This document shows positions 12,477 through 32,351 of a stretch of DNA of 38,114 bases, one piece after another. Numbering within the stretch: the first letter of the stretch is position 1; each line of letters opens with the position of its first letter. The notes beneath the pieces are model-generated. The model saw only the letters and a list, made by a program, of their open reading frames with translations, did no database searches and was not told where the DNA came from. This DNA is from Gammaproteobacteria bacterium. Its GTDB lineage: Bacteria; Pseudomonadota; Gammaproteobacteria; SZUA-229. The stretch lies in the NCBI GenBank assembly GCA_026195255.1, contig JAPHSS010000057.1:1-38114 (forward strand). Reading direction: 5' to 3'. The translations under genes and the position numbers were made by a program.

Positions 12477-12504
12477 TACAAAAGGTTCTCCAGTTAAAAG
12501 AAAA

Positions 12505-12710
12505 CCCCTCTGTCCGGTTACCTGAGAGATTGACGCAACTCTTAGATAGAATAAGTGTTAACGCGTCCCCTTCGGTGGGCTTTTAGCCGCTCTCCAGAGT
12601 CAATTGCCAGTATTCTGACGCGAAGCTGTAGTCCTTCTACCTGAGCGTTTGCGGGTGGTTGCGCCTTCGGTGCCTTTCCATATATCGATACAGAAAGATC
12701 TCTCCCACAG
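12505..12710 (-). promoter_or_regulatory. Tandem glycine riboswitch upstream of gcvT
   Basis: Read on the minus strand, two glycine aptamers follow each other. Aptamer 1 (about 12622-12710) has GGGAGAG, then GCACCGAAGGCGCAA, then CAAACGCTCAGGTAGAAGGAC. Aptamer 2 (about 12505-12602) has TCTGGAGAGC, then CCCACCGAAGGGG, then CAATCTCTCAGGTAACCGGACAG. These are the conserved core blocks of the glycine riboswitch class. Aptamer 2 ends 28 bp before the gcvT start and its G-rich tail leads into TTTTC, so control could act on termination or on ribosome access. In this class glycine usually turns gcv expression on. A possible -10 box (TATAGT, complement of 12754-12759) lies upstream, but I see no convincing -35 box. 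Confidence 0.93.
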
Positions 12711-13048
12711 CCTCAAGCCATACCGGTTAAAGTACAGCCTAAATTGAGCGCGTACTATAAACCAGATAAGGCTGAATTACCAGATACTGCTTCTGCATCA
12801 ACCTCTAAAGCTCTTAATGCCGTGCTGGTTGATATCCCGCAGATTATTCATTAGCCGGCTTACCGTAAGTAACTGCCTTATAGAGGAATTACCGGAAAGA
12901 TAATCTGAAAGAGCTCTCTCTGTTGAGTAACTTCTCCATCGGGGAAAGGTTACCAATTTTTGGCGCCCTGAGCTTCACCCTGCCCCCTACAGCTTATGTG
13001 TTTATTATTTACATCTGACAGTTTTATTAGATGCATTTTATTTATAAA
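12711..13048. other. Gene-free leader and spacer between the gcv riboswitch and ubiI
   Basis: About 340 bp without a credible gene. It should hold the promoter of the gcv operon near its left side. At 12941-12987 it carries a partial copy of the GGGGAAAGG...GCGCCCTG repeat found at 4519-4657. No other structure stands out. Confidence 0.6.
12941..12987. repeat. Partial third copy of the GGGGAAAGG/GCGCCCTG repeat
   Basis: The segment begins GGGGAAAGGT, continues TTTTTGGCGCCCTG and ends near TGCCCCCT. It matches one arm of the MITE-like element at 4519-4657 with an internal change after GCGCCCTG. No inverted partner is visible nearby, so this is a solo or decayed end. Confidence 0.6.
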
Positions 13049-18769: not shown

Positions 18770-18961
18770 GGGTGCTTCTGTGGTGTTTGTAAGCTTACTT
18801 ATAAAACCCTTGAGCCTTACTCATCGACCCCGGGAATGTGTCTGCCGGTGCTGTGTGCATTACCGCTTTATGCGGGAAGCCTTATACACCGACGCTAGCT
18901 CCCACCTGAACTTCTGGTTCAAGGTTCGTGAGATATAGCTACGGCATTTATGGTTGCACCC
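18770..18961 (+). ncRNA. ssrS: 6S RNA (SsrS)
   Basis: 6S RNA mimics an open promoter and binds sigma70 RNA polymerase, mainly in stationary phase. It lies in the canonical zapA-ssrS-fthC position and is about 192 nt long. The termini pair (GGGTGC at 18770 with GCACCC at 18956-18961). Bases 18901-18945 carry the conserved 3' part, a CTTCTGG-type loop hairpin CCTGAACTTCTGGTTCAAGG followed by GCTACGGCAT, which parallels E. coli CTTGAACCAAGGGTTCAAGG and GCGGCGGCAT. The ends are inferred from pairing and could be a few bases off. The promoter is weakly visible only (TTGCTG at 18740). Confidence 0.9.
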
Positions 18962-28801: not shown

Positions 28802-29194
28802 TTAACGTTTAGAGAACTGAGTAGCGCGACGTGCTTTACGCAGACCCACTTTCTTACGTTCAACTTCACGTGCATCACGTGTAACAAAACCTGCTTTACG
28901 CAGTGCGGGACGTAAACTTTCGTCATACTTCATCAGTGCACGTGTAATACCATGACGAATTGCACCAGACTGACCAGTATCGCCACCACCTTTAACTGTA
29001 ATATTGAAATCAAACTTGTTGTCCATTTCAACTATGCCTAAAGGCTGTTTAACAATCATTATTGAAGTTTGACGACCAAAGAATTTTTCAATTGGAAGAC
29101 CATTAACTTTAAAATCACCACTGCCTGCAGTCATGAATACTCGAGCGCTTGAAGATTTGCGTCGACCTGTTGCGTAATATTGAGTTTCTGCCAT
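28802..29194 (-). CDS. rpsI: 30S ribosomal protein S9
   Basis: A 130-residue ribosomal protein, E. coli length. It has the N-terminal [15 protein letters not shown], the central [20 protein letters not shown] and the basic tail ending [12 protein letters not shown], whose terminal Lys-Arg contacts P-site tRNA in the 30S subunit. It follows rplM by 14 bp, the conserved L13-S9 operon. Confidence 0.98.
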
Positions 29195-29208: not shown

Positions 29209-29637
29209 TTAAATGTCCAGCACTTGAGGCTGCTGGGCTGTATGTTGGTGTTCCGGGCCGGCATAAACTTTTAGCTTACGATACATAGCGCGTCCCAGTG
29301 GATTCTTAGGTAGCATGCCTTTAACTGCTTTCTCGATTACCATTTCAGGTTTCTTATCGATCAGCTTATCAAAAGAGATTTCTTTAATACCACCTGGAAA
29401 ACCAGTGTGATGATAATACATCTTATCCGTACTTTTACGGCCTGTTACTGCTACTTTTTCTGCATTTATAACTACTATGTAGTCCCCTGTATCAACGTGT
29501 GGTGTATATACAGGCTTATGCTTACCGCGTAGGCGGCGAGCAATTTCAGACGCCAATCGACCCAGAGTTTTACCATCTGCGTCTACTACGTACCAGTCAC
29601 GCTTAACCGTTTCGGGCTTGGCACTGAATGTTTTCAT
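29209..29637 (-). CDS. rplM: 50S ribosomal protein L13
   Basis: A 142-residue protein of the large subunit, full length: [83 protein letters not shown]. It is first in the rplM-rpsI operon, with a good promoter 37 bp upstream. In E. coli L13 represses its own operon; no such site can be recognised by eye here. Confidence 0.98.
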
Positions 29638-29709: not shown

Positions 29710-29784
29710 GCACTAATCAGCAATAAAGTTAACCTATAATACGCGATACCAGACTGACAAGCCAATTTTAGCTTTATTACAGAC

Positions 29785-29815
29785 AAAAAAAAGCGTGACA
29801 GGGGAGGTCACGCTT
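29785..29815 (-). terminator. Intrinsic terminator of the candidate small RNA
   Basis: GCGTGAC (29793-29799) and GTCACGC (29807-29813), extended by two A-T pairs, with 7-nt loop. On the minus strand it is followed by eight U (complement of 29785-29792). The plus strand lacks a U-tract, so it works leftwards only. It could also serve the ferredoxin gene further upstream. Confidence 0.85.
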
Positions 29816-29884
29816 AAAAATTCTCTCATTGAGAATGGAGGAGTCACTAAATATGAAAAACTATAACTTAGGAATTCATAAGAT
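29785..29884 (-). ncRNA. Candidate small RNA with anti-Shine-Dalgarno loops
   Basis: A free-standing transcript unit is visible on the minus strand between the ferredoxin gene and rplM. A promoter (complement of 29891-29918) is followed by about 100 nt ending in an intrinsic terminator. Predicted structure from 5' to 3': a weak AT stem near the start, a single-stranded part containing GACTCCTCC, a hairpin ATTCTC/GAGAAT with loop AATGA (29821-29837), and the terminator stem GCGTGAC/GTCACGC (29793-29813) whose 7-nt loop is CTCCCCT, followed by eight U. CTCCTCC and CTCCCC could pair with ribosome binding sites, as in trans-acting small RNAs that mimic the 16S 3' end. No known family is recognised. 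Ends are approximate. Confidence 0.5.
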
Positions 29885-29890
29885 AAGTAT

Positions 29891-29918
29891 ATTCTAATAT
29901 AATATTTAGCCAATGCAA
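29891..29918 (-). promoter_or_regulatory. Promoter of the candidate small RNA
   Basis: On the minus strand TTGCAT (complement of 29913-29918), 16-bp spacer, TAGAAT (complement of 29891-29896), in a very AT-rich context. Predicted start near 29884. The remaining gap up to the ferredoxin gene (29919-30102) shows nothing else. Confidence 0.5.
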
Positions 29919-30102
29919 GCTTTTTGTGAATCTTTTCACATTAGCCCTGCCCGAAAAACCAATAAAAACCACCATCAATACAACTAAAAGCCCGTTGTAC
30001 TGTACTTTAGCGATGTAAACCCTAACCCAGAGTGCATTCAAAGCAATTTCTTCTAGCCACTAAATACCCCACTGATAACAGCCTGGCGGCATCCTGATTT
30101 TT

Positions 30103-30420
30103 TTATTTATCAATAAGCAATCGACTAACTATTTCATTTTTAATCAGGTGCCGCTCAATAATCTCATCTATATCCGCCTGATTTTCATAGCTGTACCAGG
30201 TTTCGTTCGGATACACCACGATAACGGGGCCCTGCCCACAGCGATCCAGGCAACCTGCTGTATTTACTCTGACCTTGCCTTTGCCAGATAAACCCAGCGA
30301 TTTTATTCTGGCTTTGGCATATGCCCTTAACTCGCTAGCCCCTGCTTTCTCACAACACCGTCGCCCGTCGTTTCGTTGATTGGTACAGAAAAATACATGC
30401 TGCTGGTAATAACTCATCAT
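30103..30420 (-). CDS. Thioredoxin-like [2Fe-2S] ferredoxin
   Basis: A 105-residue protein of the thioredoxin-like 2Fe-2S ferredoxin family (Shethna/NuoE-like fold). Cluster cysteines: Cys12 in HVFFCTNQR, Cys22 or 23 in GRRCCEKAG, then Cys57 and Cys61 in NTAGCLDRCGQGP. The GPVIVVYPNETWY segment completes the family pattern. It is a cytoplasmic electron carrier with unknown partner. Either of the two adjacent ATGs (30420 or 30417) may be the start. It is divergent from a GlcF-like Fe-S gene, with a 78-bp shared promoter region. Confidence 0.92.
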   Translation of the reverse strand: MMSYYQQHVFFCTNQRNDGRRCCEKAGASELRAYAKARIKSLGLSGKGKVRVNTAGCLDRCGQGPVIVVYPNETWYSYENQADIDEIIERHLIKNEIVSRLLIDK

Positions 30421-30498: not shown

Positions 30499-31725
30499 AT
30501 GAAAAATTCAAGCAAATCATCAGACACTGACCTGTGCGTAATGTGCGGCATGTGCCTGCCCAACTGCCCGACATACCAGCTCTACCAGAGCGAAACGGAG
30601 TCACCAAGAGGCAGAATTGCACTCATTCAAGCGATAAACCAACAGCAGATAAAAGCAGATGCCACGGCATTACTTCATATTGACCATTGCCTTAGCTGTC
30701 TGAATTGTGAAACCATTTGCCCCTCCAAGGTTCCCTATGGAAAAATAATTGATGATTTTCGAAATCAGTTTAATTCGTCTATAAAAAAATCTTACTTAAG
30801 CCGGGCGATACTAAAACAGTCTACAAAACCCAATGGCCTTGAAACATTATTTCATATTGCTAACAAACCCGTTATTAAACAGATTCTCCGCCTCGGCCCT
30901 TCAAGTTTAAAAACGACTGCATTACAGACCACGCAAAACAGAGCAGAAATTAAAGCATTTTATGCTGGCTCATATTCCGCAGCAGAGAATCGTCGCGGTG
31001 AAGTCACCCTGTTTACCGGCTGCATTGGGAAATCGTCCGATCACGACACCATTAAGGATGCTGTTGTAATACTAAACAGTCTTGGTTTTGATGTTAATAT
31101 TCCCCCGCAACAATATTGTTGCGGGGCACTTCATCAACATAACGGGCAACAGCAACAGGCCAGTCAATTACTAAAAGAAAACCAGCTCCAGCTTGAAAAA
31201 CTAAAATCAGATTTTATATTATTTTTCAGCCCGGCCTGCGGTGAAAACCTGCAACAGCTTGAAAACCTGGCCGTGTTAGATGTTCGCTCATTCATCCTGA
31301 GTGAACTGCAGCAACAACATTTATCATTTAAAAAGCCAGATCAGCCTGTTGCACTACACGAAAGCTGCAGTCACAGAAACAGACTTAAACTCAAAACACT
31401 AAACTATGACTTAATAAACTGTGTGCCAGATGTGCACATATTAGACTCTAACAACCCCTCACTCTGCTGTGGTGCTAGCGGCATCCAGTCAATTGATTAC
31501 CCTGAGCAATCTCAGGCTTTATTGCAGGCAAAATTAACTAGTTTTGACTTTACACAAACGAATATACTCATTAGCGACAATATTGGTTGCAGCCTGCATA
31601 TGAAATCATCCATATCCGGGTATAATCCCAATATTGAAATAATACACCCTGTGAGTTTTCTGGCCCGCCAGTTAAACATTAAAAACCAACCTGACACCGA
31701 AGTTACCCATAAATGCGACACCTGA
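30499..31725 (+). CDS. GlcF-like (Fe-S)-binding oxidoreductase subunit
   Basis: A 408-residue protein with two N-terminal 4Fe-4S clusters (Cys13-16-19-23 in CVMCGMCLPNCP and Cys64-67-70-74 in CLSCLNCETICPS) and two CCG domains (TGCIGK...YCCGALHQHNG and ESCSHR...LCCGASG). This is the glycolate oxidase iron-sulfur subunit / heterodisulfide-reductase D family. No GlcD or GlcE gene is adjacent, so its flavoprotein partner is unknown. It overlaps coq7 by 13 bp, implying translational coupling. Confidence 0.88.
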   Translation: MKNSSKSSDTDLCVMCGMCLPNCPTYQLYQSETESPRGRIALIQAINQQQIKADATALLHIDHCLSCLNCETICPSKVPYGKIIDDFRNQFNSSIKKSYLSRAILKQSTKPNGLETLFHIANKPVIKQILRLGPSSLKTTALQTTQNRAEIKAFYAGSYSAAENRRGEVTLFTGCIGKSSDHDTIKDAVVILNSLGFDVNIPPQQYCCGALHQHNGQQQQASQLLKENQLQLEKLKSDFILFFSPACGENLQQLENLAVLDVRSFILSELQQQHLSFKKPDQPVALHESCSHRNRLKLKTLNYDLINCVPDVHILDSNNPSLCCGASGIQSIDYPEQSQALLQAKLTSFDFTQTNILISDNIGCSLHMKSSISGYNPNIEIIHPVSFLARQLNIKNQPDTEVTHKCDT

Positions 31726-32351
31726 CCCCTATTGATCAGTTAATTGTGCAGTCTGATCACGCTCTACGCACAATATTTGGCAAACCTGTCACGACGGAGA
31801 GAGCAAACCCCTCTCAAGATACCGCTGAAAGCAAGCTCAATGAAACTGAACGCAAGTTATCCTCCCGTTTGATGAGAGTAAATCATTCTGGTGAAGTATC
31901 GGCTCAGGCCCTCTACCAGGGGCAGGCGTTAACGGCACGTCTCGATACTGTAAGAGAAGGCATGCAACGAGCGGCGTTAGAAGAAAACGATCACCTGGCG
32001 TGGACCGAACAGCGCCTGACCGAGTTATCGAGCCAGAAGAGCCTGTTAAACCCTGTCTGGTATGGCGGCTCATTTGCTATCGGCGCCATTGCCGGATTAT
32101 TAGGTGATAAATGGAGTCTGGGTTTTGTTGCCGAGACCGAACATCAGGTAATAAGGCATCTAGATGAACACCTTGAAAAACTACCTGAAAACGACGCTCG
32201 TAGCGAAGCTGTTCTTAAACAAATGAAAACAGATGAAGCGCATCATGCAACGGTCGCTCTAGAGGGAGGTGGTGCAGATTTGCCATGGCCAGTTAAAAAA
32301 CTGATGTCGGCGATGTCAAAGGTAATGACGACATCGGCGTATTATATTTAA
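31713..32351 (+). CDS. coq7: Coq7-type 3-demethoxyubiquinone 6-hydroxylase
   Basis: A 212-residue di-iron membrane-associated monooxygenase that adds the C6 hydroxyl in ubiquinone synthesis, replacing the flavoprotein UbiF. Di-iron ligands are visible: Glu61 in NHSGEVSAQ, Glu91 and His94 in EENDHL, Glu143 in AETEHQV, Glu175 and His178 in DEAHH. The hydrophobic segment YGGSFAIGAIAGLLGD (about 117-132) lies between them, as in the family. Length is normal. It overlaps the Fe-S gene upstream. With UbiI and UbiH it completes the three ring hydroxylases in this window. Confidence 0.96.
   Translation: MRHLTPIDQLIVQSDHALRTIFGKPVTTERANPSQDTAESKLNETERKLSSRLMRVNHSGEVSAQALYQGQALTARLDTVREGMQRAALEENDHLAWTEQRLTELSSQKSLLNPVWYGGSFAIGAIAGLLGDKWSLGFVAETEHQVIRHLDEHLEKLPENDARSEAVLKQMKTDEAHHATVALEGGGADLPWPVKKLMSAMSKVMTTSAYYI

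Follow-up and report, generated by a model that had tools for sequence, protein, structure and literature searches.

The analysed stretch of DNA, referred to as the window, comprises 38,114 nucleotides from a gammaproteobacterium. On its minus strand, between a (2Fe-2S) ferredoxin-like gene (fdx) and the rplM-rpsI genes, lies a candidate small RNA (sRNA) gene, whose features and neighbours are given below. The window proteins encoded by rplM, rpsI, fdx, coq7 and glcF were named by eye from their translations.

29785..29884, minus strand: candidate sRNA gene of about 100 nt, its 5′ end placed from the promoter and its 3′ end from the terminator
29209..29637, minus strand: rplM, downstream neighbour, on the same strand as the sRNA
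28802..29194, minus strand: rpsI, downstream of rplM
30103..30420, minus strand: gene for a (2Fe-2S) ferredoxin-like protein (fdx), next upstream of the sRNA and on its strand
31713..32351, plus strand: coq7-like gene, in the wider neighbourhood of the sRNA
29913..29918, minus strand: -35 element TTGCAT, often TTGACA in relatives
29891..29901, minus strand: -10 region inside the conserved box TATATTAGAAT, for which the consensus of the aligned relatives is TATTAGAAAAT
29852..29880, minus strand: hairpin H1 at the 5′ end, judged from individual folds and their z-scores; the window's own H1 is weak (z = -0.3)
29837..29845, minus strand: anti-Shine-Dalgarno (anti-SD) stretch 1, GACTCCTCC, left unpaired by the fold prediction
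29820..29836, minus strand: hairpin H2 of the predicted fold, ATTCTC-AATGA-GAGAAT
29791..29815, minus strand: terminator hairpin H3 with the loop CTCCCCT; the loop is CATCCCCTG in many relatives of the family
29785..29792, minus strand: run of eight T (the U tail, presumably for termination and contact with Hfq)

The initial annotation had proposed a minus-strand promoter, a middle hairpin, a terminator and two C-rich stretches, and all four are present. TTGCAT (29918-29913) and TAGAAT (29896-29891) are separated by 16 nt, this promoter agreeing with the consensus at only 8 of 12 positions by our own count and being absent from the list of the promoter scan. Both H2 and the terminator are part of the fold of lowest energy predicted for 29784-29885 (-21.3 kcal/mol; z = -4.0; equalled by 0 of 200 shuffles). 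H2 has a stem of 6 bp (AUUCUC/GAGAAU, loop AAUGA, 29836-29820), and the terminator a perfect stem of 9 pairs (29815-29791, loop CTCCCCT), which merges into the T run, the first two of the eight T being located within the stem and the other six after it. The C-rich places are the loop of this terminator and the anti-SD stretch at 29845-29837, written GACUCCUCC on the minus strand. When simply counted, such terminators are unexceptional in this region, with four found vs. 3.1 expected in 4 kb; since they are no rarer than chance, the case for an sRNA gene therefore needs conservation.

A DNA search of 58 genomes, i.e. that of the window and its relatives, found the element in 12 of them, the window's own included. 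Among the 13 nearest loci, rplM is in the expected place in 12 and fdx in 11, and the missing neighbours (fdx in L005 and L012, rplM in L013) all fall at contig ends. The conserved blocks in the alignment of 12 intergenic regions are the TATATTAGAAT box with the 5′ end that follows it, GACTCCTCCAT and the terminator. A covariance-model search of relatives, the check put forward in the initial annotation, detected the element (model R2, 38 sequences) in 44 of the 54 genomes of the window's order, including 20 of the 22 good-quality ones, and in 13 of its 14 genera, the locus having been checked in part of these genomes. The same annotation held that a lack of conservation beyond the terminator would speak against the proposal; conservation was found to extend to the promoter box, the CU-rich block and the locus. 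As for named organisms, the closest fdx relative belongs to MAG N1D-Bin_4, and 22 named loci were gathered through the fdx protein. Model R1, for which 11 sequences from the family of the window were used, detects the RNA in three of these loci (L021, L022 and L024), which are MAGs titled Gammaproteobacteria and in which rplM follows fdx, while in the other 19 fdx is not beside rplM. Because the element is conserved, it makes a credible sRNA gene, and from the sequences compared a real one is very probably present at 29785-29884.

At curated thresholds, Rfam gives no match at the place of the sRNA. Elsewhere in the window, it identifies a 6S RNA (RF00013, 66.8 bits) at 18772-18960 on the plus strand and a tandem pair of glycine riboswitch aptamers (RF00504, 56.6 and 48.1 bits) at 12500-12717 on the minus strand. 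A permissive search matched the whole of the RF02278 model ('Betaproteobacteria toxic sRNA', positions 1-64 of 64), with 28.3 bits (E 8e-4 in 401 bases) against a gathering score of 50 bits, followed by the weaker Aar (25.8 bits) and ncS54 (23.3 bits). Four relatives obtained 27.9-34.2 bits with RF02278, also below this cut-off. When 15 loci were searched in the same permissive manner, the listing of RF02278 was confined to L006, L007 and L008, ncS54 alone was given for L001 and L003, and the named loci tried among L027-L038 gave neither of the two.

The RF02278 model was also compared to 274 genomes of the class, of which 82 match at E <= 0.001, two of them above the cut-off, vs. 0 of 14 controls. 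Among the 30 best loci found in this way, 23 are directly upstream of rplM on the same strand. The two above the cut-off (L043 and L044) have coq7 nearby instead of rplM, and none of the five query genes was seen at L054, L058, L059, L063 and L071. Model R1 recovers 30 of the 30 loci, with E no worse than 6e-4 in 199 kb; the base pairs of R1 being those of the terminator only, these scores alone are weak evidence, while the shared locus is independent of them. L054 and L059 hold, as well as the main sRNA, a second and shorter C-rich RNA-like element (2482-2531 and 234-283, respectively), made of ATCCTCCTGTCCCC and a terminator with an AACCCC-type loop.

In its layout, the window element has the CU-rich anti-SD stretch of RF02278, located 5′ of two hairpins of which the second is the terminator, and it resembles the double-hairpin RNAs ncS03, ncS05, ncS27 (bdhR1) and ncS62 of Burkholderia cenocepacia by a CUCCUCC-type stretch, a small hairpin and a terminator. 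It differs from RF02278 by a longer 5′ part, by a middle hairpin with the loop AAUGA in place of a CU-rich one and by its score below the cut-off; moreover, RF02278 was described for Betaproteobacteria, whereas the present element is gammaproteobacterial. Kimelman 2012 is reportedly the founding paper. According to one paper, the toxic sRNA occurs essentially in Betaproteobacteria, and no account of it outside this group was found in the open-licence literature. The initial annotation had recognised no Rfam family, a view that has to be revised, the element being a diverged relative of RF02278, S17 and ncS27 that scores below the Rfam cut-off.

At the level of the class, model R2 matches 146 of 369 genomes (E <= 0.001) from 79 families, 30 of these genomes having supplied training rows and matching by construction. 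Loci were examined in 106 of these genomes, for the most part those with higher scores. The sRNA is followed by rplM on its own strand, at no more than 900 nt, in 80 of the 106 and preceded by a same-strand fdx in 58; 88 have rplM or fdx, and 16 have none of rplM, fdx and coq7 in the stretch at hand. By family, the rplM link is present in 47 of the 58 families examined. The other 40 genomes give mostly weaker matches and may include lookalikes. A total of 173 matches were placed on loci, 111 of them linked to rplM at a distance of 90-792 nt (median 154), L003 and L100 being one place that is counted twice in both totals. Tandem copies occur in L160 (three, 2180-2458), L055 (two, 1370-1559) and L166 (two, 1129-1336), which recalls the sibling pair of NmsR RNAs in Neisseria.

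Concerning the limits of this distribution, a sample of the phylum gave 34 R2 matches out of 299: 30 in the class, nine of which are lookalikes from family f160, and four weak ones outside. The weak f160 matches (L134-L140 and L142), set aside as looking like a different RNA, carry CTCCTCATCAGGCTAATCACGG or a sequence near it (one variant in L138) before a terminator, with two copies in L137, L139 and L140, and they seem to belong to another family that begins with a similar anti-SD stretch. In the order of genome G259, presumably the Burkholderiales, 119 of 200 genomes match. Since f108 is the only family of the 146 genomes found among the matches listed for that order (61 further matches are not among these), most of the spread of R2 seems to lie outside it.

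The structure was then compared among the 106 distinct cores linked to rplM. Each of them forms two or more hairpins when folded, 102 finish in at least five T, 88 have CTCCTCC within their first 16 nt, 78 have CTCC in the loop preceding the terminator and 77 have CC within the terminator loop. The two anti-SD places of the initial annotation stand in part: the CU-rich single-stranded stretch is conserved, but the second CUCC of the relatives is in the loop of H2, where the window has AAUGA and lacks the motif, retaining its C-rich terminator loop. Compared to the rest of the family, the window's genus has a shifted H2 register with loss of the CUCC loop, and a weaker -35 element. Upstream of the RNA, TTGAC-13nt-TATTAG was found in 34 of 110 rplM-linked loci, or 39 with a spacing of 12-14, vs. 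a mean of 0.045 in mononucleotide shuffles (n = 200), and TATTAG by itself, at any position within the 110 nt upstream, occurs in 54 of the 110 loci vs. 6.1 in shuffles.

Automatic consensus folding recovered the terminator and no other element, and H1 was judged instead by single folds and z-scores. The alignment used (A7) holds 31 of 45 sequences: the 110 loci were cut to the 44 with a TATTAG-like box at 45-85 nt, the window was added and 14 were dropped. The single folds of these 31 sequences show a 5′ hairpin, with z < -1 in 27 of 31 (mean -3.5) vs. -0.3 in the window. Covariation was analysed on a 38-row alignment (A3), drawn from 41 candidates after omission of L047, L052 and L063 for their likeness to others, L012 and L013 also not being included. 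With the structure that we supplied, 96.1% of the cells are paired and 10 of 13 pairs show double changes, eight of them in the terminator. The covariation score is 0.452 vs. 0.207 in shuffles, 0 of 500 being as high, and vs. 0.06-0.17 for slid versions, over which the tested structure is favoured, having been read from the same 38 sequences. H2, with two of its five pairs doubly changed, is kept mainly as sequence.

The gene order connects the element to RNAs already studied. In family f108, all seven fetched loci have the RNA 588-754 nt downstream of coq7. Elsewhere in the same order, that of RF02278, the arrangement coq7-RNA-rplM-rpsI is found on a single strand in L238 and L243; of the nine loci inspected there, three have rplM and six have none of the query genes, and a ATATTAGATAAT box is present upstream of the RNA in five by our own count. 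BCAL3348 of B. cenocepacia is presumably rplM. According to the respective papers, ncS27 lies between BCAL3348a and BCAL3349, BCAL3348 appears among ribosomal protein genes, and the S17 gene of Bordetella pertussis lies between a glycosyltransferase gene and coq7. With the places of S17 and ncS27 taken from these papers, the neighbourhood is shared. Because coq7, sRNA and rplM follow each other in L238 and L243, because the f108 RNA and S17 are both beside coq7, and because of the place of ncS27, the most plausible reading is that the window element is an ortholog of S17/ncS27, all of them stemming from a single ancestral locus.

Further likenesses concern the RNAs themselves. As described in its report, S17 has coq7 nearby, two anti-SD sites (Sites 1 and 2), a promoter and a terminator to itself, and a primary form that extends beyond the conserved core. 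It differs by a primary transcript of 190 nt and by a demonstrated Hfq dependence and RNase E processing, which in the window would hold by analogy; it is also reported that S17S does not impair the exponential growth of E. coli. The Neisseria meningitidis RNAs NmsRA and NmsRB have three stem-loops: anti-SD 1 occupies the single-stranded part that separates SL1 from SL2 and, as in most family relatives but not in the window, anti-SD 2 is in the SL2 loop. They form a tandem pair at dsbB-lrp and are likened to the window element by layout. The three-stem-loop layout was found in the 31 single folds and their z-scores, SL1 being weak in the window. In CyaR of E. coli, a CCUCC stretch and a C-rich terminator loop act against ribosome binding sites; CyaR differs in that it is not among the Rfam matches at the window place.

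Taken together, the locus likely carries a gene for a trans-acting sRNA, the window's ortholog in an old family that comprises RF02278, with ncS27/bdhR1 of Burkholderia and S17 of Bordetella, and resembles NmsR in layout. The comparison supports this reading by an own promoter, a single-stranded ACUCCUCC, a second hairpin, a terminator that often has a C-rich loop, and the position upstream of rplM. That the sRNA gene is independent, with a promoter and a terminator to itself, as initially proposed, is supported by the conserved promoter, locus and CU-rich block.

An unrelated sRNA could resemble RF02278 through convergence on an anti-SD motif and a generic terminator, as might be suspected from a window score under the cut-off, a short conserved core and weak matches to other CU-rich Rfam families. 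This is nevertheless improbable, since the locus is common to both groups (coq7-sRNA-rplM in L238 and L243 of the RF02278 order), the upstream box recurs in that order in five of the nine inspected loci, and there are graded intermediates.

It is distinctly improbable that the region is a cis-acting leader or attenuator of rplM-rpsI, in which the terminator would halt read-through into rplM and the RNA upstream of it would sense a ribosomal protein. The position upstream of rplM is indeed close and conserved, but the distance to rplM ranges from 90 to 792 nt, the f108 copies are beside coq7, copies occur in tandem (e.g. three in L160) and 16 of the 106 examined genomes have a copy without rplM, fdx or coq7 close by. 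Furthermore, the window's relatives show, by eye, a separate conserved promoter-like block and leader for rplM, downstream of the sRNA terminator. Given the copies away from rplM and this separate block, the control by or of rplM that the initial annotation had envisaged is no more than a conjecture; inherited synteny is the simplest explanation of the position next to rplM, and it need not entail regulation of rplM itself.

The region could also belong to the ferredoxin mRNA, as no more than its 3′ untranslated end and terminator or as an sRNA processed from that end, given that fdx precedes it on the same strand in 58 of the 106 examined genomes. In the other 48, however, no fdx is present within 1 kb upstream (some of these stretches finish at contig ends), and 39 of the 110 rplM-linked loci have the promoter-like pair at fixed spacing upstream of the RNA; because the promoter is conserved, we consider this origin very unlikely.

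As for reading frames, the initial annotation saw none on the minus strand, where, strictly, two TTG-start frames of 59 codons (29734-29913) and 57 codons (29868-30041) overlap the sRNA; because of indels in the alignments of relatives, their coding role is unlikely. A conserved plus strand, on which GGAGGAGTCACTAAATATG is found and GGAGGAG would be the Shine-Dalgarno sequence of a short frame (29853-29897), is hardly credible and was rejected, as the length of the frame is not conserved (14 codons in the window, 10 in G002 (L228) and two in G001 (L233)), its start does not, by eye, recur in the wider family, and the T run suits the minus strand.

With the trans-acting sRNA as the preferred reading, its mode of action can be outlined by analogy. 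In the published work on the known RNAs, S17 binds to Hfq, is a substrate of RNase E and represses BP2158 via pairing with the 5′ UTR of that gene, overexpression of ncS27 slows growth and its silencing speeds growth, and the NmsRs repress TCA-cycle genes via two anti-SD stretches and are under stringent control. The sRNA and its relatives probably act, likewise, by blocking the ribosome binding sites of mRNAs. The window sRNA would be transcribed as about 100 nt from its own promoter, its U tail would be bound by Hfq, the gene of which is present in the window genome, and its 5′ side would perhaps be trimmed by RNase E, as in S17. Its CU-rich stretches would pair with the Shine-Dalgarno sequences of many mRNAs, such that ribosomes could not load, and the targets would be, as for S17, ncS27 and NmsR, transporters and carbon-metabolism genes.

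No excess of target sites was detected in the searches made. With one mismatch allowed, the 12-base site ATGGAGGAGTCA has nine matches in the window's own genome, the sRNA itself included, vs. nine for the reversed control, and five vs. eight in G004, while the 8-base GGAGGAGT before ATG occurs three vs. two times in the own genome and 16 vs. 14 times in five genomes. Three of these 16 matches are the sRNA locus itself, and the frames behind the motif, named by eye, include CBS-domain-like (L227), UspA-like (L224), partial GGDEF-like (L230) and short ones. These counts are compatible with either a short Hfq-assisted pairing, as at Site 1 of S17, or a small target repertoire.

The element is thus no new class of RNA; it is a widespread, syntenic and previously unrecognised extension of the RF02278/S17 family, of which the window holds a diverged form. 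More tentatively, RF02278, S17, ncS27 and perhaps NmsR might be branches of a core sRNA that stood beside rplM in the ancestor of the Gammaproteobacteria in the broad sense (Betaproteobacteria included) and was kept there by selection, because it couples nutrient uptake and carbon metabolism to the supply of ribosomes by braking translation initiation in general. To our knowledge, few bacterial trans-acting sRNAs hold one locus over so many families. The alignments would support an improved Rfam model. If the proposed family relationship is right, the separate reports on Burkholderia, Bordetella and possibly Neisseria concern one old regulator, whose range far exceeds its Rfam name and whose function would be open to study in harmless gammaproteobacteria.
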